A stretch of 64,000 bases of DNA, from NCBI RefSeq assembly GCF_001614315.2, contig NZ_LVEG02000001.1, forward strand, positions 372,001-436,000, written 5' to 3'. This document shows, one piece after another, positions 24,661-42,499 of the stretch. The stretch's first letter is position 1; each line of letters starts with the position of its first letter. Under the pieces are notes generated by a model that saw only the letters and a list, made by a program, of their open reading frames with translations, searched no databases and had not been told where the DNA came from. This DNA is from Halofilum ochraceum (lineage in GTDB: Bacteria > Pseudomonadota > Gammaproteobacteria > XJ16 > Halofilaceae). Made by a program: the position numbers and the translations under genes.

Positions 24661-25578
24661 ATGCAGACCGGTCTCGTGATCGCGGCGGCACTGTTCGCCG
24701 ATGCCCTGCTCGGCGAGATGCGCCGTGGTCACCCGCTCGTCGGATTCGGTGTGCTGGCCGCGCGCACGGAGCGCACGCTGAATCGCCGTTATTTCCCCGC
24801 TTTCCTGCGCCGCCTGCTCGGGGGGCTCGGACTCCTGCTGCTGGTGGCGCCGCTGGTCGTGGCCGCTGCGTGGCTCGCGGCCGCACCCCACGGCTGGGCC
24901 TTCGAGGTGCTCGTGCTCTACCTGGCGCTGGGGCTGCGCAGTCTCGGCAAACATGCGCGTCGGGTACAGCGTGCACTCGACGCCGACGATATCGATTCGG
25001 CCCGTGCCGCCGTGGGCATGATGGTGAGTCGCGATGTCCGCGCGCTCGACCGCCGCGGGGTGGCGGCGGCCACGATCGAATCGGTGCTGGAGAACGGCAA
25101 TGATGCCGTGTTCGGTACGTTGTTCTGGTTCGCGGTCGCCGGCGCGCCAGGGGCGTTGGCCTATCGCCTCGTCAATACCCTGGACGCCATGTGGGGGTAT
25201 CGCACGGCGCGTCTGGCCGCGTTCGGCTGGACCGCGGCGCGGCTGGATGACCTGATGAACTGGCCGGCGGCGCGACTGACCGCGCTCACCTACGGTCTGG
25301 TGGGCCGCGCGCCGCTGCGGGCGCTGCGTTGTGCCCGGGTGCAGGGTGGGCGCACGGACAGCCCCAATGCCGGTGTCGTGATGGCCGCGGGCGCCGGGGC
25401 GTTGGGCGTGCGTGTCGGCGGTCCGGGCGTATATCATGGCCGGCGGACATGGCGGCCCCGGTTCGGAGTCGGTCGGCGCCCGGATGTGGCCGCGATCGGA
25501 CGGGCCACCGGTCTTGTCATCAACGGCGCGCTGGTCTGGACGGGCATTGCCTGTATCGTCGGCTGGTGGTTTTCGTAG
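24661..25578 (+). CDS. cbiB: Adenosylcobinamide-phosphate synthase CbiB (CobD of aerobic naming)
   Basis: Inner-membrane enzyme that joins adenosylcobyric acid with aminopropanol phosphate. The 305-residue protein has the family start (LVIAAALFADALLGEMRRGH, PLVGFGVLAARTERTLN), several membrane segments (for example around residues 56-75 and 290-303), and the conserved cytoplasmic motifs SVLENGNDAVFGTLFW, DAMWGYRTARLAAFGW and RTDSPNAGVVMAAGAGALGV. It heads the plus-strand run cbiB-cobD-btuF-pldA. Confidence 0.94.
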   Translation: MQTGLVIAAALFADALLGEMRRGHPLVGFGVLAARTERTLNRRYFPAFLRRLLGGLGLLLLVAPLVVAAAWLAAAPHGWAFEVLVLYLALGLRSLGKHARRVQRALDADDIDSARAAVGMMVSRDVRALDRRGVAAATIESVLENGNDAVFGTLFWFAVAGAPGALAYRLVNTLDAMWGYRTARLAAFGWTAARLDDLMNWPAARLTALTYGLVGRAPLRALRCARVQGGRTDSPNAGVVMAAGAGALGVRVGGPGVYHGRRTWRPRFGVGRRPDVAAIGRATGLVINGALVWTGIACIVGWWFS

Positions 25579-25678: not shown

Positions 25679-26686
25679 ATGCGGCGTAGACATGGCGGCA
25701 ATCTCGGCGAGATGGTCCGGGCGATGGGCCGCCCGGAGCAGGACTGGCTTGATCTGTCGACCGGGATCAATCCTCACCCCTGGGAGGCACCGACACCGCC
25801 GCCGGCGACCTGGTACCAACTCCCCGACCCGCATGACGGCCTGGTGGAAAACGCCGCGGCCTATTACGGCAGCGATGCCACCCTGCCGGTACCGGGTTCG
25901 CAATCCGCGCTCGCGATGCTGCCGTGGCTGCGTGGCCGCTCACGCGTGGCGGTGATCGATCCTGGTTATTCCGAGCATGCCGCCGCGTGGGCGCGTGCCG
26001 GTCACGATGTCGTACCACTGTCTTCGCCGCAGCTCTCCGGCGGCGCCGGCACGGCGTTCGACGTGCTCGTGGTGATCAACCCGAATAATCCGGATGGCAC
26101 GTACTTCGAGCCGGAGACGCTGCTCGAGTGGCGCACCCGGATCGCGAGCCGGGGCGGCTGGATGATCGTCGACGAGGCCTTTGTCGACACCACCCCCCAA
26201 TACAGCCTGGCGCCGCAGGCACCGTTACCCGGCCTGTTGATTCTGCGCTCCATCGGCAAGTTCTTTGGCCTGGCCGGCATGCGGATCGGCTTTGCGCTGG
26301 GCCCGGATGACCTGCTGCAGCCCCTGGAAGAGGCGCTCGGACCGTGGTCGGTCAACGGGCCCGCCCGCTGGCTCACCCGCAACGCCCTCGGCGACCGTGC
26401 CTGGCAGTCCGCCATGCGTAGCCGGTTGCAGGGCGAGGGCGAGCGCCTCGGCGAACTGCTTGCGCGTCATTTCGGGCGGCGCGTGGTCGGTACGCCGCTG
26501 TTCCGGACGGTGCTTACGCCGCATGCCGCGGCCATCCACGAAGCGTTGGCGCAACAGGGGATCCTCGTGCGACTGCTTGATCGGCAGGACGGTCTGCGTT
26601 TCGGTCTGCCCGCGGATGAGGCGGACTGGCGACGTCTGGAAACCGTACTCGCCGATGTCATGGCCGAGGTCACGAGTCGCGCATGA
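25679..26686 (+). CDS. cobD: Threonine-phosphate decarboxylase CobD (PLP enzyme)
   Basis: Fold-type I PLP enzyme that decarboxylates L-threonine phosphate to aminopropanol phosphate for CbiB. The 335-residue protein begins RHGGNLGEM (typical of CobD/CobC), has DLSTGINPHPW, VINPNNPDGTY, the VDEAFVD aspartate, and the PLP lysine in LRSIGKFFGLAGMRIGF. It follows cbiB by 100 bases and overlaps btuF by four bases (ATGA). Histidinol-phosphate aminotransferases are relatives; here hisC is a separate gene at 49326, which supports the cobalamin role. Confidence 0.93.
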   Translation: MRRRHGGNLGEMVRAMGRPEQDWLDLSTGINPHPWEAPTPPPATWYQLPDPHDGLVENAAAYYGSDATLPVPGSQSALAMLPWLRGRSRVAVIDPGYSEHAAAWARAGHDVVPLSSPQLSGGAGTAFDVLVVINPNNPDGTYFEPETLLEWRTRIASRGGWMIVDEAFVDTTPQYSLAPQAPLPGLLILRSIGKFFGLAGMRIGFALGPDDLLQPLEEALGPWSVNGPARWLTRNALGDRAWQSAMRSRLQGEGERLGELLARHFGRRVVGTPLFRTVLTPHAAAIHEALAQQGILVRLLDRQDGLRFGLPADEADWRRLETVLADVMAEVTSRA

Positions 26687-27555
26687 CGCTACGCACCCTG
26701 TTTGGCGCGCTGCTGATCGCCGTGGCAAGCCCGGCCATGGCCGGTATCGAGGTGACGGACGATACCGGTCGCACCGTGCGCCTCGATGATCCGGCCGAGC
26801 GGATCGTGAGCCTCGCGCCGCACGTCACCGAGACGCTGTTCGAGGCGGGTGCCGGCGACCGCATCGTCGCGACCGTCAATCACAGCGATTATCCGCCGGC
26901 GGCGGAAGACATACCGCGGATTGGTGGCTACGATCGAATCAACATCGAGCGGATTCTCGATCTCGATCCGGATCTGGTCATCGGCTGGGAGAGCGGCAAT
27001 GCCCAGGCGCAGATCCAGCGCCTCCAGGACCTCGGACTGACGCTGTACATCAGTGAGCCGCGGGAGCTCTCCACGATCGCCGGGAGCCTGGAGCGATTCG
27101 GTACGCTCGCCGGAACCGCCGATACGGCCCGCGAAGCGGCACGCGCGTATCGCGAGCGTCTGGCGGGGCTGCGCGCACGGTATGCCGACCGCGAACCCAT
27201 TGAGGTGTTCTACCAGATCTGGAACAACCCGCTGATGACGATCAATGACGACCACCTGATCAGCGACGTCATCCGCGGCTGCGGGGGGACCAACGTGTTC
27301 CGCGACCTGCCGAAGATCGCGCCCCGCGTCAGTACGGAGGCTGTGGTCATGCGCGATCCGCAGGTCATTGTTGCCAGCGGTATGGGTGAGGAACGCCCGG
27401 AATGGCTCGACAACTGGAAGCAGTGGTCGGAGTTGCGCGCGGTGGCCAACGGGAATCTCTATTTCATTCCGCCGCAGTATCTCCAGCGACACACCCCACG
27501 CATCCTCATCGGTATGGAGCGCTTGTGCGAACAATTGGTCGAGGCGCGCGGGTAG
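26683..27555 (+). CDS. btuF: Cobalamin-binding periplasmic protein BtuF-like
   Basis: Substrate-binding protein of a corrinoid ABC importer, 290 residues. A signal peptide covers about residues 1-20 (cleavage after SPAMA). The class III binding fold starts with IVSLAPHVTETLFEAGAGDR and contains RIGGYDRINIERILDLDPDL and FYQIWNNPLMTINDDHLIS. BtuF/BtuF-like proteins use this fold for vitamin B12; iron-siderophore relatives exist, but location after cbiB-cobD supports a corrinoid. The matching permease and ATPase genes lie 14 kb away on the other strand (40338-42082). It overlaps pldA at its 3' end. Confidence 0.9.
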   Translation: MTLRTLFGALLIAVASPAMAGIEVTDDTGRTVRLDDPAERIVSLAPHVTETLFEAGAGDRIVATVNHSDYPPAAEDIPRIGGYDRINIERILDLDPDLVIGWESGNAQAQIQRLQDLGLTLYISEPRELSTIAGSLERFGTLAGTADTAREAARAYRERLAGLRARYADREPIEVFYQIWNNPLMTINDDHLISDVIRGCGGTNVFRDLPKIAPRVSTEAVVMRDPQVIVASGMGEERPEWLDNWKQWSELRAVANGNLYFIPPQYLQRHTPRILIGMERLCEQLVEARG

Positions 27556-29666: not shown

Positions 29667-30320
29667 TCAGTCGCCGGCCTTCGGCCAGCCGTCCTCGCCG
29701 ACGAGGTTATCCAGCGGGATCCGCTGGGCCCAGTCCTCGCGCTCCAGCATGGGGCGGTCGTAGAACCCGTCCACATGACCGAGGCACAGGATCGCGATCG
29801 GCTTCGCCCCGGGCGGCATCGCGAGCAGCTCAGCCACGGCGCTCGGATCGAACAGCGAGACCCAGCCCATCCCCAGGCCTTCCGCACGTGCGGCCAGCCA
29901 CAGGTTCTGGATGGCGCAGGCCGCCGAGGCCAGGTCCATCTCCGGCATCGTCCGGCGACCGAATACGTGGCGTTCGCGACCGTCGCAGAGTGCGACGACG
30001 AGCAGTTCGCCGCAATCGCGCATGCCTTCGACCTTGAGCCGCATGAATTCGTTCCGTCTTTCGCCAAGCGCATCCGCCGTGCGTTCGCGTTCCCCCTCCA
30101 CCAGCGCGTGCAGTTCGTTCCGCAGTGCGGTGGAGGTGATCCGGATGAAACGCCAGGGCTGCATGTACCCGACGCTCGGTCCGAGATGGGCCGCCTGGAG
30201 CAGCCGCGTCAGCGTCGCCGGTTCGACCGGATCCGGCCGGAAGTGACGCATATCGCGACGTTCGGCGATGACGCGGTACAGCGCATCGATCTCCGGCTGG
30301 CTATAGCGCTGCTCCGGCAT
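29667..30320 (-). CDS. bluB: 5,6-dimethylbenzimidazole synthase BluB
   Basis: Oxygen-dependent flavin destructase that converts reduced FMN to dimethylbenzimidazole, the lower ligand of B12. The 217-residue protein belongs to the nitroreductase fold: RRDMRHFRPDPV, the lid-forming LGPSVGYMQPWRFIRI, and MGWVSLFDPSAVAELLAMPP match BluB over general nitroreductases. Its product is the substrate of CobT encoded at 11916. The start at 30320 (MPEQRYSQ) lies 13 bases after cobO. Its presence implies oxygen is available when B12 is made. Confidence 0.94.
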   Translation of the reverse strand: MPEQRYSQPEIDALYRVIAERRDMRHFRPDPVEPATLTRLLQAAHLGPSVGYMQPWRFIRITSTALRNELHALVEGERERTADALGERRNEFMRLKVEGMRDCGELLVVALCDGRERHVFGRRTMPEMDLASAACAIQNLWLAARAEGLGMGWVSLFDPSAVAELLAMPPGAKPIAILCLGHVDGFYDRPMLEREDWAQRIPLDNLVGEDGWPKAGD

Positions 30321-30333
30321 CGCCGGCGAGGAT

Positions 30334-30942
30334 TCAGAATTCGACACCGGGCTGCGCCTTGATGCCCTGTTCGAAGGCGTGTTTGACCTTGCGCACCTCA
30401 CTCACGGTGTCGGCGAGTTCGATCAGTTCGTCCTGCGCATTGCGGCCGGTCACGATGACGGTCTGGTGCCGTGGACGGAACTGCAGTGCTTCGACCACGC
30501 GTTCGACCGGGATATGGCCGTACTTGATCACATAGGTCAGCTCGTCGAGCACGATCAGCTTCAGGTGCTCGTCCTCGAGCAGCTTCTCGGCGTGCTCCCA
30601 CGCGGCCACGGCGGCCTGCCGGTCCTTCTCGCGGTCGCGGGTCTCCCAGGTAAAGCCGGTTCCCATCACGTGGTATTCGACGGACGGGTGCTCGCCGAAG
30701 AAGCGGTGATCGCCGGAGTCCCAGGTGCCCTTGATGAACTGGACGACGCCGCCCCTGAAGCCGTGGCCGATGGCGCGGGTGAGGGTGCCGAAGGCCGAGG
30801 AAGACTTCCCCTTGCCGTCGCCGGTGAGCACGATGAAGATGCCACGGTTCTCCTTCGCCTGCGCGACCTTCTCGTCCACGGCCGCCTTTTTCTTTTCCAT
30901 CCGTGCGCGGTATTCCGCGTCGGTTTCCTCATGCTCGGCCAT
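30334..30942 (-). CDS. cobO: Cob(I)yrinic acid a,c-diamide adenosyltransferase CobO/BtuR
   Basis: Transfers the adenosyl group of ATP to cob(I)alamin-type corrinoids. The 202-residue protein has the P-loop LTGDGKGKSSSAFGT, then GHGFRGGVVQFIKGTW, the WEHAEKLL segment and LIVLDELTYVIKYGHI typical of the CobA/CobO/BtuR family. The start at 30942 (MAEHEETD) is chosen; the frame continues upstream through a repeat. It precedes bluB by 13 bases and follows tonB after a 113-base gap with a REP-like palindrome, so it is likely in the btuB riboswitch transcript. Confidence 0.94.
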   Translation of the reverse strand: MAEHEETDAEYRARMEKKKAAVDEKVAQAKENRGIFIVLTGDGKGKSSSAFGTLTRAIGHGFRGGVVQFIKGTWDSGDHRFFGEHPSVEYHVMGTGFTWETRDREKDRQAAVAAWEHAEKLLEDEHLKLIVLDELTYVIKYGHIPVERVVEALQFRPRHQTVIVTGRNAQDELIELADTVSEVRKVKHAFEQGIKAQPGVEF

Positions 30943-30959
30943 TGCCGTACTCCTGTCGG

Positions 30960-31040
30960 GTAGCCCGGATGAAGCGCAGCGGAATCCGGACCGTGTTTCT
31001 GAAGGCGTCCCCGGATTCCGTTTCACTTCATCCGGGCTAC
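30960..31040. repeat. REP-like palindrome (GTAGCCCGGATGAAG type)
   Basis: GTAGCCCGGATGAAGC at the left and its inverse TTCATCCGGGCTAC at the right enclose inner GGAATCCGG and CCGGATTCC. The 81-base hairpin lies between tonB and cobO, inside a likely operon. The same motif family is common in intergenic regions of several gammaproteobacteria. Confidence 0.8.
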
Positions 31041-31055
31041 GATGCCGCGGTTCAA

Positions 31056-32063
31056 TCAGGCGGGTTGCAGACGGTACGTGACCGGCACCTCGAGTTCCAG
31101 CGGTTCCCCCCGCAGCCGGTCGGCGATTTCCGGCACACGCTGGATATGGATCAGGGTCTGGCGGGCGTTTTCGTCGAGGATCGAGCGCCCGGAACTCTCG
31201 GCCACTTCCACATCCGTGATCCGGCCATCGGGCTGGAGCCGGAACGTGAGAACGACGCGGCCTTCCCAGCCGCGCTGGCGTGCGATCCGCGGGTAGCGAA
31301 AGCGGTCGCGGAAGTGAATCTCCACCTGCTGCCGGGCGCGAGTCGCGAGCTGGGCACGGTCATTCGCACCCTCCGCGCCGGATTGCGTGTCGGCCTTTTG
31401 ATCTCGCTCCGGTGCTTCGCCGCTCTCCGCGCCAGCGGTTTGATTGGTTGCCTGGGCCTGGCGGGTCTCAGCACCGGTCGCGCCCGCTGTGTCCTTTTCG
31501 GTCGGCTTCGACTGATCGGACCTGGCGACCGTTTCAGAGGCGTCGGATGCTTGTGGGGTATCGGGAGCGTCGTTTGTCCGGGTCTTCTCGTCCGCTGTTG
31601 CTTTGACGGGCTTCTCTTCCGCGGCCGGCGCCGACCGGGATTGGTTGCGTTGCTCGGCCTCCTGGGCCGCGCCGGTATTGGCTCTTTGTTGTCCGGAGGG
31701 TTTCGGGGCCGCTTCGCCCGTACTCCGCTCAGCCAATGACGCCTGTACATGATCCGGTTCCACGACCTCCTGTACCGACGGTTTCGATGCCCCGTCCGGC
31801 GTGGCTTCGTCCACGCGCCTGGCCGCTTGCGGTTGCCGGCTCCGATCGCGGACCGGTTCCGGAATGGCCCCGGCAACGCCTGATTGCGCTGCCGGGTCGG
31901 GTCGGGTCGCGCCGGACGGGACCAGCCGGACGGCAACCGGGCCCGTATCGCCGCCGGGTGTCACCGCGATCTCCAGCCGATCGGGCGCATTCATCAGGAC
32001 GGCCGCGTGCAGGACCGCCGAGATGGCCGCGAAAGGCAGGATGCGCGTGACGCCGGCGGGCAT
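31056..32063 (-). CDS. tonB: Energy transducer TonB
   Basis: Links the proton motive force at the inner membrane to outer-membrane receptors. The 335-residue protein has one N-terminal membrane anchor (ILPFAAISAVLHAAVLM), a long low-complexity periplasmic linker rich in Ala, Glu, Gln, Thr and Ser (residues 60-240), and a C-terminal TonB domain with RYPRIARQRGWEGRVVLTFR and VEVAESSGRSILDENARQTL. It is 4 bases after btuB, so it probably serves that receptor. The linker is unusually poor in the Pro-Glu/Pro-Lys repeats of E. coli TonB. No exbD of the classic type is next to it. Confidence 0.92.
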   Translation of the reverse strand: MPAGVTRILPFAAISAVLHAAVLMNAPDRLEIAVTPGGDTGPVAVRLVPSGATRPDPAAQSGVAGAIPEPVRDRSRQPQAARRVDEATPDGASKPSVQEVVEPDHVQASLAERSTGEAAPKPSGQQRANTGAAQEAEQRNQSRSAPAAEEKPVKATADEKTRTNDAPDTPQASDASETVARSDQSKPTEKDTAGATGAETRQAQATNQTAGAESGEAPERDQKADTQSGAEGANDRAQLATRARQQVEIHFRDRFRYPRIARQRGWEGRVVLTFRLQPDGRITDVEVAESSGRSILDENARQTLIHIQRVPEIADRLRGEPLELEVPVTYRLQPA

Positions 32064-32067: not shown

Positions 32068-33915
32068 TCAGTCCGCTGAGCCGGGGCGCCAGGCGACCTC
32101 GAGCAGGGCGGTGCGCCCGAGCGTGTTGTAGGTATCGGCGAGCGTGTACTCGGTATCGCCGACGTTCGCGATCTTCACCCGGGCGCTCCAGTCGCGCGCG
32201 AAATCCCAGCTCGCACGCAGATCGATCAGGGCGTACGCGTCGAGCGGCACCGTGTTGGCGGCATCGTCGAAGCGGTCACCCTGGAACGCCACATCGGTTC
32301 CGATGGACCACTCGCCGAAGTCGCGGGTGAGGCCGCCCTTGAGGCCGATCTCGGCGCGTCGGGAAAGCTCCTGCCCCGTTTCCGTGTTCTCCGCGTCCTT
32401 GAGATCCAGGCTCACGTTGCCGTCCCACTCATCGGTCGTCGCTGTGACCGTGAACTCGAGCCCCTGGATACGCGCTTCGTCGACGTTCTCGGGGGCAAAC
32501 TGGCCACCGGAGAATACCGTATCGATGAGTTCATCGATTTCCGTCCTGTAGGCCGTGGCCTGCCAGCGCATCGCCTGGTAGCGGCCGCGGAGGCCCGCTT
32601 CGATCGTGCGGGATTCTTCGGGCTCCAGATCGTCGTTCCCGAACCCGGGAAAGTAGAGTTCGTTGAACGTCGGTGCACGGAATGCGGTGCCGTAGGAGGC
32701 GAATGCCTGAACCGAGTCGCTGAACCGGTACCCGAGGGCGAGGCTGCCGGTGGCCGGATCGTCGAAGTTGTCGTAGTCCTCCCCCCGGAGGCTGACTTCG
32801 CTGCTCCAGGCGTGCCCGGTCCACTGGTGTTGTGCATAGACGCCCGTGACATCGCGCTCGTCCTCGGCGAATGTGAGATTACTGTCGACCTCCACGGATT
32901 CGGCGTCGAGGCCCAGCGTCACGATCTGGGAAGTCCCGAGCGTGATTTCGTTCTGCCAGCCGAACGAATCGCGGATGGTATCGAACGTGTTGGCGGGCTG
33001 ACGGTTGAGGAAGTTGTCGCTCTCGTCGGTCGAACGGCTCAACTGGACGCGGGTATTCCAGTTGCCGGTGAGACGCGCATCGACCCGGCCGCTGTATATA
33101 CGCTGTTGGCTCTCGGTTCGGTTCTGGGAGCTGCCGTCGTACTCGACCTCCGAATCGGTGGCAAGGATTCGGCCCGAGACCGTAACCGCCTCGCCGATGT
33201 CCTGACTGATACGGGCGTTCACGCTCTGGTTTTCGTAACCGTCATCGTCAGGTTCATTGCAATTGGACACGAAAGCCGATCCACAGGTTTGACCATTGCG
33301 TACATAATTGTTTTGTCTGGCGTCGATCCCGTCGGTCTCTTCCGCGGAGACATTGACACTGAAGCTCGTGCCGTCGCTCTTGCTGCCGTAACCGGCGGAA
33401 CCCTGCCTGCGGTCGTGGGTGCCGGCGCCGACCGTGGCATGACCGCCTTCGCCTTCACGGGTGAAAATCTGGATCACGCCACCGATGGCGCGGGAGCCGT
33501 AGAGGCTCGAGCGCGGGCCGCGCACGATTTCGATGCGTTCGACGTTGGCGAGCGGCAGGTCCTCGAAGGAGGCCGTACCGGTCGTTGCCGACCCGACCTC
33601 GACACCATCGACGAGTACCAGCACATGGTCGCTCTCGGTGCCCCGGAGGAAAATGCTCGAGTTGGTGCCACGGCCGCCGTTGCGGGTGAATTCCACGCCC
33701 GGTTGACGGCTGAGCAGTTCGCCCATGCTGGAGGTCTGACTGCGCTCGATCTCCTCACGGTCGACCACCGTGACGGATGAAAGCGACTCATTGGCGCTCT
33801 CCGCCGAGCGGGTTGCGGTCACGGTGACGGGTGCGATCGTGTCGGCGGCCAGTGCGGATACGGAAACGGCCGAAAACGCGGCGGCGATGCCGCCGATCAG
33901 GCAATGTCGATACAT
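32068..33915 (-). CDS. btuB: TonB-dependent vitamin B12 receptor BtuB
   Basis: Outer-membrane 22-strand barrel for cobalamin uptake, 615 residues. A signal peptide ends near residue 23 (VSALAA), followed by the TonB box region DTIAPVTVTATRS. The plug domain includes SSMGELLSRQPGVEFTRNGG, RGTESDHVLVLVDGVEVGS and VERIEIVRGPRSSLYGS; barrel motifs include FRAPTFNELYFPGFGNDDLE, where LxPE follows. The B12 riboswitch upstream supports cobalamin as substrate. The start at 33915 has TGGAG upstream, which can be hidden by an antisense GTTCTCC in the leader. Confidence 0.95.
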   Translation of the reverse strand: MYRHCLIGGIAAAFSAVSVSALAADTIAPVTVTATRSAESANESLSSVTVVDREEIERSQTSSMGELLSRQPGVEFTRNGGRGTNSSIFLRGTESDHVLVLVDGVEVGSATTGTASFEDLPLANVERIEIVRGPRSSLYGSRAIGGVIQIFTREGEGGHATVGAGTHDRRQGSAGYGSKSDGTSFSVNVSAEETDGIDARQNNYVRNGQTCGSAFVSNCNEPDDDGYENQSVNARISQDIGEAVTVSGRILATDSEVEYDGSSQNRTESQQRIYSGRVDARLTGNWNTRVQLSRSTDESDNFLNRQPANTFDTIRDSFGWQNEITLGTSQIVTLGLDAESVEVDSNLTFAEDERDVTGVYAQHQWTGHAWSSEVSLRGEDYDNFDDPATGSLALGYRFSDSVQAFASYGTAFRAPTFNELYFPGFGNDDLEPEESRTIEAGLRGRYQAMRWQATAYRTEIDELIDTVFSGGQFAPENVDEARIQGLEFTVTATTDEWDGNVSLDLKDAENTETGQELSRRAEIGLKGGLTRDFGEWSIGTDVAFQGDRFDDAANTVPLDAYALIDLRASWDFARDWSARVKIANVGDTEYTLADTYNTLGRTALLEVAWRPGSAD

Positions 33916-34042
33916 CGGGATTGTTCTCCAGGCGCTCACCCGCGCCTCTTGATTCGAGGGACGGATGGAACGGGAGAACGAAACGGTGCGACCGGGACGG
34001 CGGCACGCGCATGACGCCCCCCGCGCCATCCTGCGTACTGTT

Positions 34043-34211
34043 CCAGGCCGGTCTCCGGGCTCGCGAGTGGGCCGTTGGCCCGCGGTTCGATGCCTTCCCG
34101 GGTCAGCAACCCAGTGGCGTGTGATCGAACCGCAACTCGCCTACCGTTGCGGGGGCAGCGCCGGACTTGTGAGCGTCGAAAACGTTCACGCACCGGCTTC
34201 CCGTTTCATCC
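34043..34211 (-). promoter_or_regulatory. Cobalamin riboswitch of btuB
   Basis: Read on the minus strand, the conserved elements appear in order: GGGAAGCCGGTG (34191-34202), CCCCCGCAACGGTA (34142-34155), the B12 box with GCCACTGG...GGGAAGGC (34092-34118), and GAGACCGGCCTGG (34043-34055). In the expression platform, GTTCTCC (33973-33979, minus strand) can pair with GGAGAAC (33923-33929), which contains the btuB ribosome binding site, and a GC hairpin at 33930-33947 lies beside it. This points to translational shut-off when B12 is bound. Confidence 0.9.
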
Positions 34212-34365
34212 GTCGCGCGGCTGCGCGCCGAAACACCTGAAACAGAACGTTCACATTACGCGTTGTTCACCCGCGACTCAACCGATGCGGGCGACGGCCG
34301 TTGTTCCGTGTGCGGCACGGGGAGAATGGCGTCGGGAATCGAGGCCGGATTCACGCGACGGGCCG

Positions 34366-34467
34366 CGTAGGCGCGTTTTGGCGAAGCCGACGCGCGCGGT
34401 CGCTGGCCACGGATGCCCGGTATGGAACTGGCTGCGCGCATTCGCCTTCGGCGAAGACGCGCCTACG
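34366..34467. repeat. REP-like inverted pair (GTAGGCGCGT type) overlapping the DUF2149 stop
   Basis: The left arm (34366-34396) begins CGTAGGCGCGTTTTGGCGAAG and the right arm (34434-34467) is its inverse, ending GAAGACGCGCCTACGG. The right arm runs over the 3' end of the DUF2149 gene: its TAG stop (34463-34465) is part of the repeat core CGTAGGCGCG. The rest of the gap up to the riboswitch shows nothing else. Confidence 0.75.
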
Positions 34468-34768
34468 GTCGATCTCTTCGGTTTTCGTCGATGAGGACCA
34501 TCTTGCCGGTCTCCGGATCGCGGTAGACCTGACCGACCGCCTCGTAGCCGCTGCCCGCCTCACCGACCCCCTCGGGCACGTCGGGCAGTTCCCGCCCCTC
34601 GCTGATCTCGCGGCCACCGCTGCGCGATTCGGATGCCTGCTGCGCGGCGAGGGCGGCGATCAGGCCGCAGGCGAACACCAGCATGATATCGACCAGATTG
34701 GACAGCGGGCCGAGCGGCTCGTCGTCCGGATCATCAAAGCGGGAACGGCGCCAGTCACGCCGCCGCAT
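34463..34768 (-). CDS. DUF2149 membrane protein, ExbD-like candidate
   Basis: A protein of about 101 residues with one membrane helix and a periplasmic tail. The helix starts LGPLSNLVDIMLVFACGLIA; an aspartate at the beginning of the helix in the context NLVDxMLVF mirrors the proton-carrying aspartate of ExbD/TolR. A short soluble C-terminal part follows (SGYEAVGQVYRDPETGKMVL). DUF2149 has no assigned function; pairing with an ExbB-like gene and cobN suggests the second half of a proton channel. The start at 34768 overlaps the end of exbB by 14 bases and has TGGAG upstream. Its stop codon is supplied by a REP-like repeat. Confidence 0.8.
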   Translation of the reverse strand: MRRRDWRRSRFDDPDDEPLGPLSNLVDIMLVFACGLIAALAAQQASESRSGGREISEGRELPDVPEGVGEAGSGYEAVGQVYRDPETGKMVLIDENRRDRP

Positions 34769-35219
34769 GGTGGTCTCCATTGGCCGCTTCGATCTCGCCC
34801 ATGACCCGGTCGTACCAGCGCCGCCGGAGCCGGCCGATGATGAAGCCGACAATGCCCACGGCGAGGCCGATCACGGTGGTGTCGAAGGCGACGCTGACGG
34901 CGCGCGCCAGGATCTCGAACTCGCCGCGGGAGAGTGCGGCGATGCCCGGGCCGAGCGGGATCAGCGTTCCCATCAGCCCGAGCATCGGCGCGACTCGCGC
35001 CAGCACGTCGGCCCGTTCGATCCGTCGGCGCCCGTAGGCCTCGACCGCATCCAGGCTGCCGCGCTCACGCAGCCGCCGCAGTCCGGCAAGGCGCTCGCCG
35101 ATCACCTGGCCGACCTCCCACAACGCCAGCGCGACCAGCGCCAGCAGCAGGCCGATCGTGGGTACAAGCAACCAGCGCACGAACTCGTGCGCCAGCGGAA
35201 TCAAAGCGGAGTCGAACAT
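34755..35219 (-). CDS. MotA/TolQ/ExbB-like proton channel protein
   Basis: A 154-residue inner-membrane protein with three predicted helices: residues 14-36 (WLLVPTIGLLLALVALALW), and two near residues 75-98 and 108-132. The hallmark APMLGLMGTLIPLGPGIAAL and AVSVAFDTTVIGLAVGIVGF place it in the ExbB/TolQ family, in the subgroup usually annotated next to CobN and DUF2149. It overlaps the DUF2149 gene. It lies 406 bases after cobN, the gap being filled by a palindromic element. I infer that it forms a proton-driven motor with DUF2149 acting on CobN; it could instead energise TonB of the btuB operon. Confidence 0.88.
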   Translation of the reverse strand: MFDSALIPLAHEFVRWLLVPTIGLLLALVALALWEVGQVIGERLAGLRRLRERGSLDAVEAYGRRRIERADVLARVAPMLGLMGTLIPLGPGIAALSRGEFEILARAVSVAFDTTVIGLAVGIVGFIIGRLRRRWYDRVMGEIEAANGDHHAAA

Positions 35220-35270
35220 GGGGTTCTCCCGGTTCGGTTAATCAAGGGCTATAAGGGCTTAAAAATTCTG

Positions 35271-35608
35271 GAACCACGAATGAACACGAATGAACACGAA
35301 TGGGCTCCTGGGTGAGTCGATCACTCGGGAGCTTCGCTGTGGCCGCGCGGAAGCGGAGATGCGAATGAAGAACCACGGATAGACACAGATGGACACAGAT
35401 AAAAGTCAAAACCGGAATTGTGGCGATAGGAGTGGATGAGTGCTGATTTGCCAGTTCCGATCCAGTTGCTCATTAGATCGACGTCCTTTTATCTGTGTCC
35501 ATCTGTGGTTCCGATATCCGATCGTGCTCCGAGGAGGATCAGCGAAGCTCCCGAAACAGCAGCTATCCCAGGAGCCCATTCGTGTTCATTCGTGTTCATT
35601 CGTGGTTC
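35271..35608. repeat. Palindromic element copy 2, with a second palindrome nested inside
   Basis: Outer arms 35271-35312 and 35567-35608 are a 42-base perfect inverted repeat with the ends CCACGAATGAACACGAATG and then GGGCTCCTGGG. Subterminal GGGAGCTTCGCT and AGCGAAGCTCCC follow. Inside lies a distinct inverted pair: CCACGGATAGACACAGATGG with CACAGATAAAAG (about 35370-35406), and its inverse CTTTTATCTGTG...CCATCTGTGG (about 35486-35512). The element begins 17 bases after the cobN stop and fills the space before exbB. No coding sequence is present in the 406-base gap. Confidence 0.85.
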
Positions 35609-35625
35609 TTAAAGCAGTCCTGATG

Positions 35626-38600
35626 TCAGCGAACCGTCCCGCCCCTGAGCCCGGCCGCCAGTCCGCCAGTGAGGAACAGGAGGCCGATGAGAGCGGCGCT
35701 GAGTACGGTCCAGTCCCAGGGCTGGTCGGCCTGGGTGTCGCGCTGCTGCGGCTGCTTTTCCTGGACTTCCTGCGGCGGTTGTTTCTGTTGCTTCTTTTGC
35801 GCCTGTTCACGCGTCTCGATCTGGCGCACGGAACTCGGGTCCTGCTCGGATTCCGGTGTCGTGACCTTCGCGTCCGCGCGGATCTCCCGCATGGCCTTGC
35901 GCTGCTGCTCGGTCAGTTTCGGTTCGATCCAGTCGAGCATGGGATGGTCCGGGCGCGTGTGGCCGCTGCCGGGGAGGCCGTTGTCGATGACGAGTCGGGC
36001 GAAGTCGCGCGCGATCCGTTCGGCCGTTTCGGCGTCGGCGTTCCAGAAGTCCTTCTGCATCGCGACCAGCATCACCGCGAGCATGTTCGCCTTCACGTGG
36101 GCGCTCTGGCCTTCCTCCAGGAACTTGTCGAGGCCGAGGTCATGGCGATCGTCCAGATAGACCGACTTGATCTCTCGCCACATGCCGTCGGTGATCATGT
36201 CCGGGTTGGTGACCTGCCAGCCCCAGAAATTTTCGAGGAACTTCGAGCCCATCGTGCGGGCACCGGAATAGCCGTGGCTCATCAGCGGTTTGATCCAGGC
36301 GGGGTTCAGGTAACGTCCCTGCAGCTCGGCCAGCACGGCACTCTCCAGCGCTTCGACGCTGGGATTGTCCGGATCCGAGTGGTCGACGACGCGGTTGCGT
36401 GGTGCGGTACCGCTGACGCTCTCGACCGCCAGGTTGAGACCACCGAGGTAGTCGAACGCGTCGTTGTTATCGAGCAGCCCGTAGACATTGGTCGCGCGGC
36501 CCAGATAGGTGCGCTCGACGCCGTACAGGGCCTGCCGGAATGCCGCATGGGCCGACCGGCCGCTGACGCCGTCGCCATAGGCATGGCCCATACGCTGTAT
36601 ATACGCGTCCGCGATCTCGGCGCGCTTGTCCCAGGCACCGGAACGCTCGGTCAGGCGATTGACGCCGGCGCCGTAGCCACCCGGGGCGTCGCCGAAGACC
36701 CGCAGGGCCGCCTCGCGACCGGCGGCGGCCGGGTCGGTCCCGTCGTCGACGGCGCTGCGCGCCGCGGCGATCCAGTGCTGGGCGATGCGGTTCGTCTCAA
36801 TGGGTTCGCTGCCCGGATTGCGCAGCTCCCCGAGCGGTTCAAGCGCGTTCGCGAGCGCCGGGCGGAGGTCCGGGTGTCGCTCGCGGATGGTCTCGGTCGA
36901 GGCGTCCAGCGCGAGCAGGACGGCCCGGTCCAGCCACACCAGCAGATTCTGGTACAGGTCACGGAACAGACCGGAGGTGGTGAACAGGACATCGCGCCGG
37001 ACGCGGTCTTCCGGCAACTCCATGCGCTCGATGCCCTGGAGAATGCCGCGGCTGTTCCAGACCGGTTTGATGCCGAGCATGTTCAGACCGAAGGCGACCA
37101 CGGCGCCGTCATCGCGCACCGTATCCGAGGCCCAGAGTACGACCGCCTCGCTGCCCTTGTGGGGTGTGTCTTCGCGCGCGCGCCGCGCCATATCGGAGCC
37201 GAGCTTCCAGGCCAGCCGGGTCGGGAGCAGGCTGCCATTGAGGGCGTGGAAGTTGCGGCCGGTCGGCAGGACTTCCGGCGAACGTACGGGATCGTTGCCC
37301 TTGCCGGGGGCGATGAAGCGACCGTCCAGCCCGGCGAACAGGGCATCCATCTCGCGCTTCGGCGAGATGGTGAGCTGTTCGCGTGTTTCCGGCTTGGCCG
37401 AATCGCCGATCGATTCCATCATGGTGTCGATGGCGTCTTCCTGCCACGGACGTCCGAAGATATGCAGGCCCTGGGGCATGAAGTCTTCCTGCATTTTGGT
37501 CAGGTAGTGACCGACCTCGTGCACGAACAGATGCCCCTCGACGTCCTCGAAAGCGATATCCCGCTTGTCGAGGATATCCTGCATGCTCTTGGCCAGTGCC
37601 TGCTTCATGTCGAGCTCGTCGATCAGGCGGCGGATTTCCTTGAGGGCCCGTGTCTGGGCCGGTGTGTCCTGCTCGCCGCCCTCCGCGGACTCGTAGCTCT
37701 CGACGAGCTGGCGGAGTTCGAGCAGGCGATCGTAGAGTGGCGTGGTCGCCAGCGGCGGTGTCAGGTGATCCACGATGACGGCGAGGCCGCGGCGTTTTGC
37801 CTGGATGCCCTCTCCGACGCCATCGACGATATAGGGGTAGACGCCGGGCAGGTTGCCCGGCGCGAGCCGTGAATAGTCCTCGGCCCGCATGCCGACGCGG
37901 TTGCCGGGCAGGAACTCGTAGGTCGAGTGGCGCCCGAAGTGGACCAGCGCGTCCGCGTTGAAATCGTTGCGCAGCCACTCGTAGAACGCCAGATACTGAT
38001 GCGGTGGCGGGAAGGTCGTATTGGCGTGCAGCAGTTCTTCATCGAGTTCCCAGCCCCGCGGAGGCTGCGGCCCGACGAATACATTGCCGAATCGGATCCC
38101 CGGCAGCAGCAGTTCACCTTCGTGCGCCATGACATAACCGGGCGCCTCGCCCCAGCCGCCGAGCGCCTCGATGCCGGTGCGCTGCAGCGCCGCGGTGAGG
38201 CGCTCGATCCGGTCGAGCCGGTCCTTGCCGTCGACGAGGGCGTCATAGGCGGCATGCAGCTGATCGAGCAGATCGAGCGCTCGTTCCCTGGCCTCGTGAT
38301 CGACGCCCTCGATCATGTGCTCCGTGTCGCCAAGCGTGCGTTCGATCAGATCGCGCGCGATGTCGATCGCCTCGGCGTTGAGCGCGGCACGGACCTCCGG
38401 GATCAGCCGTGCCAGCGGGCCGCCGGTCATTTCGCGCTGTACGGCCTCGGGGAGTGTCCGGAACCATTGCTGGTACTCATCTCCGGGCACCGTGTGTACG
38501 CGTTCGCTCATCGCATCGAGCGCCTTGCGATTCTCCGGCAGATTGACGGCGCGTTCCTGCAGCATATCGAGCAGGGCCTCGGGAGAGCCGGGCAGCTCAC

Positions 38601-39957
38601 CGACGGTATAGCCCCGGTCCTTCAATTCATGCAGCAGGTCGTACAGGGAATCGACCACGTCGAGGTTGTCGGCGCCGATGTTGTGGCGCCCCGGTGGGTG
38701 GTTATAGAAGACCACACCCAGTTTTTTGTCGGCATTGTCGGTCGTGCGGAGCGAGCGCCAGTTGTCCAGCCGCTCGGCGACCGCTTCGATTTCGGTGGCG
38801 ATGGGGTGAACCAGTCGCAGGCGCACGCCGGTCAGTTCGTCGATCCGTGGTGGTTCCGCAGCAGCGATGACGCTGGGCTGGCTCTGGCCCTGGACCTCGG
38901 GCATGGCCACCCGGTAGTGCACGCTCTCGAACGGGAGCCCCTCCGGCGACAGGCGCCATTGTGCCTCGGTGCGCTCCGTCAGGCGCACGGCCTTGAGGAC
39001 GGGTACATCGAGATCGCGGAATGCCTCGACCGCCTGTTCGCGACCCTCGCCGCCGCCCACGACAAAATCCTGAATCGTCACGATTCCGGCCAGCGGTGCG
39101 GGGGTGAGATGCTCGCGCAGATCATCAAGCGCTTCGACGCTGGTCTCACCCCACTGGGCGAGCACCGATACGCACTGAAGGCCGCGCTCGCGAATTCTGT
39201 CGCAGAGGGTGTCGTGGACCGCACGATGGCCCACGCGGTCGCCGGTGTCGTAGTCCAGAACGACCACGACGCCACCCTCGTCATCGAATCCGGCGGTATC
39301 CGGATCGACCATGTCGCCGTCGTGCAGCCAGCGTACGGCGGGGCGATCGCCCGGTGCGGCCGGGTCGATGCCTTCGGTGTGCGGGGCCAGCAGCCAGCCG
39401 ATCAGGGCGCGCAGGTTGTCGCGCCCGCGGGCCTGCCAGTAATGCCGGCCGCGAAGCCAATGGGCCTGTTTTTCATGGGGGTCGGCGAGGGCCGTGAAAT
39501 GCTCGGTCAGCGTTTCGTCGGCGTCGGGCTGGGACGTAAGTTTGTCGAGGGTTGCCGCGTCGAGCCTGGCCAGTGGGCGCTCGCCGTCGATCCGGCTGGC
39601 GGTGGTCAGGCGCCGGTCGCTCGAGACCGCGAAAACGGTCGCCGTGGCGGGAGGAGGGTTGGAATCGAGCAGCCGTACGAAGCGCGGGGCGGCTTCACCG
39701 AAGACCGCTCCGAACAGCACGGCGTCCGCGTCGGCCCAGAGCTGCGCCACGGCGGCATCGGTGCGCTCGGCCAGCTGCTCCGGTGTGCGCAGCACCAGTT
39801 CGTGCCCCGGATGCGCGTCGTCGAACGCCTCTGCGGCCGCCGCCATGGCAGGGGCGGAGCGGTCGGAGACGATACCGACGAGTTGGGCCGCGCTGGCGGT
39901 CGGTGGGAACAGGATGGCCAGCGCGGCGACCGCCGCCATGCACGGATAACGGGACAT
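35626..39957 (-). CDS. cobN: Exported, membrane-anchored CobN/HmuS-family metal chelatase subunit
   Basis: A 1443-residue protein of the CobN/magnesium chelatase H family. The large CobN core is clear: PPRGWELDEELLHANTTFPP, FHFGRH-type metal-site segment (VHFGRHSTYEFLPGN), YPYIVDGVGEGIQAKRRGLA, and MSHGYSGARTMGSKFLENFW. Unlike cytoplasmic CobN (about 1275 residues), it starts with a signal peptide (MAAVAALAILFPPTASAA) and ends with a Gln/Pro/Lys-rich linker (about 1370-1412) and one membrane helix (VLSAALIGLLFLTGGLAAGL). It should therefore face the periplasm. No AAA+ CobS/CobT partner is nearby; an ExbB-like and a DUF2149 gene follow. A B12 riboswitch controls it. Cobalt insertion or removal on a corrinoid is inferred. 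Confidence 0.92.
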   Translation of the reverse strand: MSRYPCMAAVAALAILFPPTASAAQLVGIVSDRSAPAMAAAAEAFDDAHPGHELVLRTPEQLAERTDAAVAQLWADADAVLFGAVFGEAAPRFVRLLDSNPPPATATVFAVSSDRRLTTASRIDGERPLARLDAATLDKLTSQPDADETLTEHFTALADPHEKQAHWLRGRHYWQARGRDNLRALIGWLLAPHTEGIDPAAPGDRPAVRWLHDGDMVDPDTAGFDDEGGVVVVLDYDTGDRVGHRAVHDTLCDRIRERGLQCVSVLAQWGETSVEALDDLREHLTPAPLAGIVTIQDFVVGGGEGREQAVEAFRDLDVPVLKAVRLTERTEAQWRLSPEGLPFESVHYRVAMPEVQGQSQPSVIAAAEPPRIDELTGVRLRLVHPIATEIEAVAERLDNWRSLRTTDNADKKLGVVFYNHPPGRHNIGADNLDVVDSLYDLLHELKDRGYTVGELPGSPEALLDMLQERAVNLPENRKALDAMSERVHTVPGDEYQQWFRTLPEAVQREMTGGPLARLIPEVRAALNAEAIDIARDLIERTLGDTEHMIEGVDHEARERALDLLDQLHAAYDALVDGKDRLDRIERLTAALQRTGIEALGGWGEAPGYVMAHEGELLLPGIRFGNVFVGPQPPRGWELDEELLHANTTFPPPHQYLAFYEWLRNDFNADALVHFGRHSTYEFLPGNRVGMRAEDYSRLAPGNLPGVYPYIVDGVGEGIQAKRRGLAVIVDHLTPPLATTPLYDRLLELRQLVESYESAEGGEQDTPAQTRALKEIRRLIDELDMKQALAKSMQDILDKRDIAFEDVEGHLFVHEVGHYLTKMQEDFMPQGLHIFGRPWQEDAIDTMMESIGDSAKPETREQLTISPKREMDALFAGLDGRFIAPGKGNDPVRSPEVLPTGRNFHALNGSLLPTRLAWKLGSDMARRAREDTPHKGSEAVVLWASDTVRDDGAVVAFGLNMLGIKPVWNSRGILQGIERMELPEDRVRRDVLFTTSGLFRDLYQNLLVWLDRAVLLALDASTETIRERHPDLRPALANALEPLGELRNPGSEPIETNRIAQHWIAAARSAVDDGTDPAAAGREAALRVFGDAPGGYGAGVNRLTERSGAWDKRAEIADAYIQRMGHAYGDGVSGRSAHAAFRQALYGVERTYLGRATNVYGLLDNNDAFDYLGGLNLAVESVSGTAPRNRVVDHSDPDNPSVEALESAVLAELQGRYLNPAWIKPLMSHGYSGARTMGSKFLENFWGWQVTNPDMITDGMWREIKSVYLDDRHDLGLDKFLEEGQSAHVKANMLAVMLVAMQKDFWNADAETAERIARDFARLVIDNGLPGSGHTRPDHPMLDWIEPKLTEQQRKAMREIRADAKVTTPESEQDPSSVRQIETREQAQKKQQKQPPQEVQEKQPQQRDTQADQPWDWTVLSAALIGLLFLTGGLAAGLRGGTVR

Positions 39958-40056
39958 TCGGTGAGCCTCCCCGGGGATGACAGACGGCGGAGAGGCTGGC
40001 GGAGGGCAGAAGTACCGGCCGCCGGTGCCCCGCCCGCCGCGGGTTCCGTACGTATC

Positions 40057-40208
40057 CCAGGCCGGTCTCCGGACTCACGGGGTGGCACGTGTCGCGTACC
40101 CGAGGTCGCCGCCTTCCCGCGCCGTGCGCAGTGGCTTTTCTGGCGACCCCACCCGTTTACCGTTGCGGGGGCAGTGCCGGACTCTCACCGGCTTCCCGTT
40201 TCAACCCG
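40057..40208 (-). promoter_or_regulatory. Cobalamin riboswitch of cobN
   Basis: On the minus strand the conserved parts occur in order: GGGAAGCCGGTG (40186-40197), CCCCCGCAACGGTAAA (40156-40171), the B12 box around GCCACTGC (40128-40135) with GGGAAGGCGGCG, and GAGACCGGCCTGG (40057-40069). Before the cobN start, AGCCTCTCC (39989-39997) can pair with GGGGAGGCT (39964-39972), which is the ribosome binding site, so control is probably translational. The riboswitch lies after btuD and so separates btuCD from cobN. Confidence 0.9.
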
Positions 40209-40337
40209 AGCCTGAAAGCCGGGTCACCTGGAACGAATCGGCGGAAATTACGCACTCGCGGATCGGGGGTCAAGCGCCGGCCCCGGTCCGCCCGGGGCCC
40301 GGTCGATGGGGGAGGCGGCCCGGTGGAGCGGGGTACT

Positions 40338-41105
40338 TCAGGTCGGCACGAACGCCCGGTGACCGGCTACCTCGACCGCCTCGATGGGGTGGTGGTAGAG
40401 GCAGGTCAGATGGCCTGGCTGGAGCAGTTCCGGGGCCGGGCCGTGGCGGACCTGGCCGTCGTGGAAGATCAACACGACGTGATCGCAGAAGCGGGCCGCG
40501 AGATTGACGTCGTGCAGGGCCATAACGAGTGTCCCGCCGTCGCGCTGGGCGCGGCCGCGCAGGTGGCCCAGCAGCCGGATCTGGTGATGCAGATCCAGGT
40601 GGTTGCTCGGTTCGTCCAGCAGATAGACCGACGGGTCCTGGGTGAGCAGGGTCGCCAGGGCGAGCCGCCGCCGTTCGCCGCCGGAGAGCGTGTCGATCGG
40701 GCGGTCGGCCAGTGCGTCCATCTCCACTTCCATGAGGGCCTCACGGGCCCGCCGATAGTCTTCCGGGCCTTCCTGGCGCCACGGGCCGATGTGCGGGTGG
40801 CGCCCGATCAGGGCGGTCTCCAGTACCGTGGCCGGGAACGGGTCCTCGCTTGCCTGCAGCAGAATGCCCAGTCGATTGGCGATGGCACGGCGCCGCATGC
40901 CGGCGAGCATCTGCCCGTCGAGCAGCACGCGGCCTTCCGTGGGCGGTCGCAGCCCGGCGAGCGTGTGGAGCAGGGTGGTCTTGCCGGCGCCGTTCGCGCC
41001 GAGTACCGCCCAGCTCTCGCCCGGCCTGAACGCGAGATCGAGCTCGCCGCCGATGCGCTTGCCCCCGATCTCGATGGCGAGGTCTTCGGTAGCGAGCAGG
41101 CTCAT
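40338..41105 (-). CDS. btuD: Corrinoid ABC transporter ATP-binding protein (BtuD-like)
   Basis: ATPase of a class II importer, 255 residues. Walker A GANGAGKTTLLHTLAG, Q-loop region ILLQASEDPFP, signature LSGGERRRLALATLL, Walker B VYLLDEPSNHLDL and the H-loop histidine in VMALHDVNLAARFCD are all intact. The FecCD/BtuCD type of ATPase serves siderophores, heme or B12; a B12 role is inferred from the riboswitch-linked genes and btuF in the window. It overlaps btuC by four bases. Confidence 0.88.
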   Translation of the reverse strand: MSLLATEDLAIEIGGKRIGGELDLAFRPGESWAVLGANGAGKTTLLHTLAGLRPPTEGRVLLDGQMLAGMRRRAIANRLGILLQASEDPFPATVLETALIGRHPHIGPWRQEGPEDYRRAREALMEVEMDALADRPIDTLSGGERRRLALATLLTQDPSVYLLDEPSNHLDLHHQIRLLGHLRGRAQRDGGTLVMALHDVNLAARFCDHVVLIFHDGQVRHGPAPELLQPGHLTCLYHHPIEAVEVAGHRAFVPT

Positions 41106-42082
41106 GGCAACCCTCGGCGCGGACCGCGGTGCAGGAGGAACAGGAACACCGGGACCCCGATCATTGCCGTCAACACGCCCACCGGCAACTGCTGGGGGGC
41201 GATCACGATGCGTGCCAGCGCGTCCGCGAACACCAGCAGGGTCCCGCCGGCGAGCACGGCCGCCGGCAGCAGCGTTCGGTGGTCGGCGCCGGCGATCAGG
41301 CGCACCGCGTGCGGGATGATGAGGCCGACGAAGCCGATGGTGCCGCCGACGGTGACGGCCGCGGCGGTCAGCAGTGAGCCGATGAAGTAGATCCCGAGGC
41401 GCAGCGGTCCCACCGAGACCCCGAGCGCCCGCGCCTGCAGGTCCCCACGCGCCATCAGGTTGAGTGGTCGGGCGAGCGCCATGGCCGCGAGCAGCCCCGC
41501 GGCCAGGGCCAGCGCGCTCCAGATCGGGGCCCCGGCATGCGCGAGATCGCCCATCAGCCAGAACAGCATGCCGCGCAGATCGCGCTCGGGGCTGACCGCG
41601 AGCATGAAACTGATCAGCGCGCCCCAGCCCGCGGCCAGCACCACGCCGGTCAGCAGCAGCCGGGTCGGTGTCCAGCCGCCGCGCCCGTGGGCCAGCGCGA
41701 ATACCAGCAGCATGGATACGAGCGCCCCGGCGAAGGCGTCGACCGATACCCAGAATGCGCCGAAGCCGGCCATCATCGTCGCCAGCGCGGCCACGGCGGC
41801 ACCGCCGGAGATGCCGAGTACGTACGGGTCGGCCAGCGGGTTACGCAGCAGCACCTGCATGAGCGCGCCAGCGAGCGCCAGCAGGCCACCGACGACGAAC
41901 GCAGACAGGGCCCGGGGAAGCCGCAGTTCGGCGACGATCCGTGTGGCCGTGTCCTCCGGCGGGCCGGTCAGCGCGCTCCACACGGCGGCCGCGGGGACCT
42001 CGACCGCGCCCGCCATAAGGGCGAATACGAGGCTCGCGAGCGCCAGCAGGGCGAGGGTCGGTAGCAGCAAGCGGGCAGACAT
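41102..42082 (-). CDS. btuC: Corrinoid ABC transporter permease (BtuC/FecCD family)
   Basis: Inner-membrane permease of 326 residues with about ten helices. Family motifs include LRLPRALSAFVVGGLLALAG, LMQVLLRNPLADPYVLGIS with GGAAVAALA, GTIGFVGLIIPHAVRLIAG and DHRTLLPAAVLAGGTLLVFA; the first of these is the normal N-terminal signature. It pairs with BtuD (overlapping gene) and probably with BtuF encoded at 26683. A palindromic element lies 13 bases upstream of its start codon, and no good ribosome binding site or B12 riboswitch was seen there. Confidence 0.88.
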   Translation of the reverse strand: MSARLLLPTLALLALASLVFALMAGAVEVPAAAVWSALTGPPEDTATRIVAELRLPRALSAFVVGGLLALAGALMQVLLRNPLADPYVLGISGGAAVAALATMMAGFGAFWVSVDAFAGALVSMLLVFALAHGRGGWTPTRLLLTGVVLAAGWGALISFMLAVSPERDLRGMLFWLMGDLAHAGAPIWSALALAAGLLAAMALARPLNLMARGDLQARALGVSVGPLRLGIYFIGSLLTAAAVTVGGTIGFVGLIIPHAVRLIAGADHRTLLPAAVLAGGTLLVFADALARIVIAPQQLPVGVLTAMIGVPVFLFLLHRGPRRGLP

Positions 42083-42355: not shown

Positions 42356-42433
42356 GCGTGACACCGCGACGCCACACGACCAGCGCCGGATCCGTCCATC
42401 GGCATTCCATGGGCGACCGAAAGCGCGCGCATG

Positions 42434-42462
42434 GCCGACAATCCGGTCCCGCTTCGCTACAA
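42434..42462 (+). promoter_or_regulatory. Candidate promoter of the GNAT/nitrilase gene
   Basis: TACAAT at 42457-42462, followed by GCGCGCTC, is 17 bases from a weak -35 (CCGACA, 42434-42439). A transcript from here would start near 42470, which favours the ATG at 42500 over the one at 42431. Confidence 0.45.
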
Positions 42463-42499
42463 TGCGCGCTCTTTTGCGACAAATGGGCTCCGGATCCCG

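Follow-up and report, generated by a model that had tools for sequence, protein, structure and literature searches.

A cobalamin-regulated CobN with an ExbB/DUF2149 pair in Halofilum ochraceum: a candidate periplasmic corrin cobaltochelatase

HmuS is a membrane-anchored protein that has been shown to be a heme dechelatase and that has ExbB- and DUF2149-type partners (PMC12583661, PMC13227078, PMC10434189). According to its authors, no annotation can be given to most members of the superfamily that fall outside the anchored clusters. In Pseudomonas aeruginosa, PA1922-PA1925 are a Zur-regulated TonB receptor, a cobN-like gene, a putative ExbD homologue and a hypothetical protein (PMC4542158, PMC8531726), and PMC6460266 attributes to Rodionov et al. 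2003 the proposal of BtuS as a third CobN type. Here a locus of Halofilum ochraceum is described, in a stretch of 64,000 nucleotides of contig NZ_LVEG02000001.1 (positions 372,001 to 436,000, called the window and numbered from its first letter), where a cobN gene stands between a cobalamin riboswitch and the genes for an ExbB-type and a DUF2149 protein. With a probability of roughly 55%, the locus encodes a periplasmic, inner-membrane-anchored corrin cobaltochelatase that is probably energised by an ExbB/DUF2149 proton motor instead of the ATP-driven CobST. Its central features are as follows.

40043..40246 (-), cobalamin riboswitch before cobN (Rfam RF00174, 118.9 bits, E 3.3e-29; 86 bp upstream of cobN)
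35626..39957 (-), CobN-like class-I chelatase, 1443 residues, predicted periplasmic (PF02514, 840 bits)
34755..35219 (-), short ExbB/TolQ-type putative proton channel, HmuU-like, 154 residues (PF01618, 40.7 bits)
34463..34780 (-), DUF2149 protein, HmuV-like, one transmembrane helix (PF09919, 30.8 bits, cut-off 27.1; start ATG at 34780 or 34768, overlapping exbB)

On the minus strand, the gene order is btuC, btuD, riboswitch, cobN, exbB, DUF2149 gene, riboswitch, btuB, tonB, cobO and bluB. The original prediction had described a B12 riboswitch before cobN and an ExbB-type gene followed by a DUF2149 gene after it, and these are borne out by the matches to RF00174, PF01618 and PF09919. It had also given CobN a signal peptide, a Gln/Pro linker and a C-terminal helix, which the start site and the hydropathy profile confirm. 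The cobN ATG is preceded by a GGAGG ribosome site, so the hydrophobic stretch at residues 6-24, which ends in ASAA, marks the true N-terminus, and by hydropathy the C-terminal helix lies at 1418-1436, after the Gln/Pro-rich linker.

When named genome contigs were scanned, 294 relatives of the window CobN were found. Locus counts refer to the best 80 of the 294, among which are Gammaproteobacteria, Betaproteobacteria, Nitrospirota, Nitrospinota and Myxococcota metagenome-assembled genomes (MAGs). This type of CobN is found in many water and soil bacteria. In a tree of 52 chelatases, the relatives form one clade with full support (Shimodaira-Hasegawa-like approximate likelihood ratio test (SH-aLRT) 100), and HmuS, cytoplasmic CobN, BchH and a second ExbB-associated clade all fall outside it. 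Instead of the cytoplasmic location that the original prediction had named as fatal to it, a predicted periplasmic signature runs across the clade: by hydropathy, it has the signal peptide and, outside Marinobacter, the C-terminal helix. In 64 of the 80 loci there is an upstream cobalamin riboswitch on the cobN strand, immediately ahead of cobN in 29 and at a more distant upstream place in the operon in 35, and other B12 genes are nearby in 37 of the 57 loci with long flanks, from which the wider neighbourhood was counted. Zinc control as in PA1922 is ruled out for the clade, riboswitches being found instead.

Both the PF02514 match and the fold place the protein in the class-I (CobN/ChlH/HmuS) chelatase superfamily, although its scores against the NCBIfam CobN models are all under cut-off (506 bits vs. 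822 for TIGR02257). An AlphaFold model of residues 231-1345 (mean predicted local distance difference test score 80) is overall about as similar to HmuS as to CobN, with E values of 1e-48 to 1e-38 for the matches to 9d26, 7c6o and ChlH, and its corrin-binding domain has a root-mean-square deviation (rmsd) of 2.1 to the CobN domain 9fpc vs. 2.7-3.0 to ChlH. In an alignment of 87 clade proteins with cytoplasmic CobN, HmuS and BchH, all 87 clade proteins have Asp (D1166) at the position of the axial His1209 of HmuS; cytoplasmic CobN also has Asp there, whereas HmuS and BchH have His. Asp1169 is likewise present in 87/87 where HmuS has Glu1212, and the superfamily His H677 is invariant (87/87). 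A clade-only Cys pair, 252 and 262 (kept in 86/87 and 87/87, respectively), would fit an oxidising periplasm. Also clade-specific and invariant is an HExGH helix motif (813-817) immediately ahead of the GLHxxG motif of the superfamily; it is not found in CobN, HmuS or BchH, and the HExGH...QE helix residues of the window protein within 813-824 (H813, E814, G816, H817 and E824) are a possible metal site. The domain IV insertion has 121 residues with 6 Met, vs. 221 and 408 residues, 10 Met, in two HmuS.

The ExbB and DUF2149 genes follow cobN directly, with almost no gap, in 64 of the 80 loci. The 16 loci without the pair are 14 Marinobacter loci and two contig ends (L066 and L082), and a Marinobacter plasmid is a fifteenth locus of this kind. 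In a class sample of 369 genomes scanned for CobN and DUF2149, ten genomes other than that of the window carry CobN at about 49-62% identity, and every DUF2149 gene over the cut-off (19/19) has a CobN-family gene no farther than about 4 kb away. A TonB gene is near only one of the 80 loci. A lack of genomic association between such CobN proteins and ExbB/DUF2149, which the original prediction had named as refuting it, is contradicted by this very strong association, although the pair is missing from the 14 Marinobacter loci. The CobN proteins of these same 14 loci also lack the hydrophobic C-terminal tail: over the last 60 residues, the best 17-residue hydropathy window is at most 0.53, vs. 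at least 1.22 in full-length CobN with DUF2149. This joint loss of helix and pair, a single evolutionary event in the tree, is what a physical link between helix and motor predicts. The local absence of DUF2149 at the Marinobacter loci is firm (blastp); genome-wide, none was found by a hidden Markov model to which divergent copies in G371, G372, G380 and G400 are likewise invisible.

The score of the window DUF2149 protein is weak alone, but is backed by the 64 relatives. In HHalign comparisons, the window ExbB aligns to HmuU with 99.6% probability and the DUF2149 protein to HmuV with 96.9%. The motor residues of ExbB/ExbD, the ExbB Thr pair and the transmembrane Asp, are present in the window pair. 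ExbB T85 and T115, invariant in 66 sequences, align to T148/T181 of Escherichia coli ExbB, and D31 of DUF2149, in the motif NLVDIMLVF (compare PFIDVMLVL in ExbD), is invariant in 65 sequences. Coupling of this putative motor to CobN is suggested by the co-occurrence of the helix and the pair.

The direction of the reaction is best addressed by three relatives that make the corrin ring (G236, G121 and G089). CobA, CobI, CobG, CobJ, CobM, CbiD, CobK, CobL, CobH, CobB and CobO are encoded in or beside their CobN clusters, and CobG is a sign of the aerobic route, with its late insertion of cobalt. Their sole CobN-family gene by PF02514 is the periplasmic type. CobS scores are at generic AAA level in two of the genomes and reach 91 bits in G089, far under the cut-off of 559, and ChlID-type subunits score below 40 bits in all three; a hidden CobS or ChlID is ruled out by these searches. 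Early cobalt insertion by CbiX is ruled out as well, there being no PF01903 match in the three genomes (CbiK, PF06180, was not searched for). An aerobic corrin pathway with no other late chelatase argues for metal insertion rather than removal: either these genomes leave B12 unfinished, or the periplasmic-type CobN performs the late insertion. Duganella CF458 (G400) was considered as a fourth case and rejected, with CbiD, CbiG and CbiX present and no CobG match in the fetched cluster; it most likely inserts cobalt early. The open reading frame (ORF) L157:17929-18717 was rejected as CobK, being on the wrong strand; CobK is L157:17605-18747 (+). Between cbiD and cobG, the three ring-making genomes have an ABC-2 ATPase and permease that are seen in no other fetched locus and are a candidate exporter of the metal-free ring.

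L035:2789-4480, ABC-2 pair
L037:2692-4382, ABC-2 pair
L156:18409-19179 plus L036:1-866, ABC-2 pair

The H. ochraceum genome was searched in whole (completeness 100%). It has no precorrin-8X methylmutase and so does not make the corrin ring, and the window CobN is its only CobN. The absence of cobS and cobT, which the original prediction had noted for the window, holds for the whole genome: there is no CobS anywhere in it, and for a ChlID/CobT-like subunit no score rises over the generic AAA level (about 30 bits at most with TIGR02442). When CbiC and CobB were scored in 42 carrier genomes, CbiC was missing from 37 and CobB present in 35. Only rings that have got as far as cobyrinic or hydrogenobyrinic acid require CobB, and it is useless for salvaging complete corrinoids. 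Metal-free substrates do exist, since corrinoids that contain no cobalt are produced by purple sulfur bacteria in cobalt-free culture (PMC6771967), among them the hydrogenobalamin of Chromatium (PMC7693184). Because CobB is common in carriers without CbiC and such corrinoids exist, uptake followed by periplasmic metalation of metal-free or early rings is the favoured reading for these salvagers.

The reaction could instead run as in HmuS, with CobN stripping cobalt or a wrong metal (Zn, Cu, Ni) from periplasmic corrinoids. HmuS, a shown dechelatase (PMC12583661), is among the best full-length sequence and fold matches and shares the ExbB/DUF2149 partners. Clearing of wrong metals could be useful: free corrins bind Cu rapidly, and their Zn complexes can be made (PMC12174906, PMC6790578). 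However, induction under B12 shortage is ill-suited to destroying B12, the axial His of HmuS is Asp here, as in CobN, the tree sets the clade apart from HmuS, and the ring-making genomes would be left with no late chelatase. Demetallation as the main function is therefore rather unlikely, and cobalt insertion may come after the clearing of a wrong metal.

Most carriers are salvagers, and CobN sits in btuB-btuFCD operons, where it might bind corrinoids in the periplasm and hand them over from BtuB to BtuFCD, making no metal bond, with the motor driving release. In HmuS, the head and neck are similar to periplasmic binding proteins (PMC12583661), and a hand-over protein agrees with the retention of CobN without a motor in Marinobacter. 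Such a role is nevertheless unlikely: BtuF is often present too, active-site residues such as H677 and D1166 would hardly be invariant (87/87), and the missing chelatase of the ring-making genomes would be left unexplained.

The pair has also to be considered as a dedicated energiser of BtuB through TonB, its place beside cobN being mere operon convenience. HmuU/HmuV have been drawn as a receptor energiser through TonB (PMC12583661), and PA1924 has been read as a TonB-linked energiser (PMC4542158); in the window, the BtuB and TonB genes adjoin the pair, and the homology to ExbB agrees with such a role. However, DUF2149 tracks cobN and not TonB, the pair remains with cobN where BtuB is not near, and Marinobacter has BtuB yet lost the pair along with the CobN helix, making this an improbable account. 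That the protein is an ordinary CobN working in the cytoplasm with a distant CobST or ChlID is hardly credible: NCBIfam does name it CobN, though under every cut-off, but the genome searches already contradict it, and the clade has a signal peptide and a C-terminal helix.

Several points weigh against a motor-driven periplasmic cobaltochelatase. The main counter-evidence is Marinobacter, where the riboswitch operon still encodes a secreted CobN but helix and pair are both gone, and thus the pair is not always required. The proposal in the original prediction that a motor powers metal insertion or removal is partly supported and is the best available: it has gained support mostly for insertion, through the ring-making genomes, while Marinobacter does without the motor pair. 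The three ring-making genomes are one lineage in the tree, and so one case and not three. DUF2149 aligns to ExbD/TolR over 19 transmembrane residues only (HHalign 7.9%) and appears to have no ExbD-like periplasmic domain, and the predicted periplasmic location is drawn from hydropathy. The 37 of the 42 carriers that have no CbiC would depend on an external supply of the metal-free substrate, and the usual place of CobB is in the cytoplasm, at a step that precedes cobalt insertion. Finally, cobN and exbB are 406 bp apart in the window and split by an interspersed repeat (35271-35608, with 69-nucleotide inverted arms), while there is essentially no such gap in the relatives. The same repeat family, with long inverted arms, is also found at 3853-4597 and 49048-49212, and repeat units like GAACACGAATGAACACGAATG have 15 matches in the window vs. 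none expected.

A periplasmic cobaltochelatase might work as follows. Cobalamin riboswitches release expression under B12 shortage, and those of this locus would then release the cobN operon. CobN would be exported, with its body on the periplasmic side and its C-terminal helix embedded in the inner membrane next to the ExbB/DUF2149 pair, as sequence and co-occurrence suggest. Proton flow through the pair would probably drive the conformational cycle that is run by CobST/ChlID ATP in cytoplasmic chelatases. The most likely reaction would be insertion of cobalt into a metal-free corrin, for example hydrogenobyrinic acid or its diamide. In salvagers such as H. ochraceum, the corrin would come in via BtuB, be metalated, and then enter via BtuFCD for CobB, CobO, CobQ and loop assembly; in the three ring-making relatives, CobN would carry out the late insertion of cobalt during de novo synthesis. 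A wider scheme can be put forward tentatively, in which the ring is made inside, exported by the ABC-2 pair, loaded with cobalt in the periplasm by the proton-motor CobN and returned via BtuFCD, the corrin doubling as a cobalt-scavenging ligand, and in which salvagers apply the same machine to rings leaked by others.

The remaining B12 genes of the window are listed below, and a CobB gene lies about 40 kb upstream of the window in the same genome.

34029..34255 (-), second cobalamin riboswitch, before btuB (RF00174, 114.4 bits)
32068..34029 (-), BtuB-type TonB-dependent receptor (TIGR01779, 522.8 bits, under the strict cut-off of 599.7)
31056..32063 (-), TonB-family protein (PF03544, 63.6 bits)
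30334..31026 (-), corrinoid adenosyltransferase CobO/BtuR (TIGR00708, 218 bits, over cut-off)
29667..30401 (-), BluB, 5,6-dimethylbenzimidazole synthase (TIGR02476, 269 bits, over cut-off)
40338..41105 (-), BtuD-type ABC ATPase (PF00005)
41102..42082 (-), BtuC-type ABC permease (PF01032, 298 bits)
26683..27555 (+), BtuF-like periplasmic binding protein (48-58% identity to a BtuF-type ORF in relatives' cob clusters)
25679..26686 (+), CobC/CobD-like aminotransferase (45% identity to annotated Marinobacter CobD)
24661..25578 (+), CbiB-like adenosylcobinamide-phosphate synthase (50% identity to annotated Marinobacter CbiB)
14878..16416 (-), CobQ-like cobyric acid synthase (59% identity to annotated Marinobacter cobyric acid synthase)

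Divergent from btuC is a gene for a GNAT acetyltransferase fused to a carbon-nitrogen hydrolase (42431-44059 (+), 542 residues). Two genomes of the same genus as the window, G155 and G266, have neither CobN nor DUF2149, and the tree neighbours nearest to the window CobN are from Myxococcota MAGs. This patchy distribution points to a locus that probably moves between lineages. The second ExbB-associated clade of the tree (L044, L047, L049, L051 and L052) consists of secreted CobN proteins of the same class that are likewise linked to ExbB/DUF2149; it has no B12 genes nearby and is possibly the PA1923 type. In the MAG contigs L083 and L131, CobN-like genes are split into two ORFs, by frameshift or assembly error. 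A Spirosoma oryzicola plasmid (L167) carries cobB-cobN-ChlID-cobQ-aminotransferase-cbiB with no ring genes nearby, possibly an ATP-driven cytoplasmic counterpart of the salvage route suggested above.

If a periplasmic, motor-driven CobN is confirmed, the central metal insertion of B12 can run on the proton gradient and in the periplasm, not on ATP, which changes how cobalt enters B12 in the carriers and explains the presence of cobN and cobB in many B12 salvagers that lack the corrin pathway. DUF2149, HmuV included, would gain a role as an ExbD-like partner of chelatases, and predictions of B12 producers vs. salvagers from gene counts would be misreading such cobN genes. The architecture of chelatase, ExbB and DUF2149 is already known (hmuSTUV; PMC12583661, PMC10434189), as is the idea of a BtuS family (PMC6460266). 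No description of a B12-regulated periplasmic CobN with ExbB/DUF2149, nor an assignment of cobalt insertion to one, was found in the literature searched, and as far as this search went, a corrin-specific, B12-regulated branch able to be the sole late chelatase is undescribed.

Among known systems, HmuS/HmuU/HmuV of the Bacteroidota hmu operon are the most similar, with an anchored periplasmic class-I chelatase of about 1450 residues followed by ExbB and DUF2149 genes beside a TonB-dependent receptor. However, that operon has a heme substrate, iron regulation and HmuY/HmuT, whereas the present locus has B12 riboswitches and btu/cob genes, no HmuY/HmuR/HmuT set, and in its relatives no gene between cobN and exbB. 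The chelatase itself differs from HmuS in belonging to a separate clade, in having Asp for the axial His and its own HExGH motif and Cys pair, and in lacking the long Met-rich domain IV insertion. PA1922-PA1925 share an operon of TonB receptor, CobN-like and ExbD-like genes but are regulated by zinc. The BtuS family also differs, in that the later-used names BtuS1/BtuS2 refer to Bacteroides heme proteins. Cytoplasmic CobNST and CobN-ChlID share the class-I fold, the metal-site Asp, the pathway context and a corrin domain to which the present one is close (rmsd 2.1 to 9fpc), whereas the CobN described here is predicted to be secreted and anchored, scores under the NCBIfam CobN cut-offs and has no CobS, CobT or ChlID.

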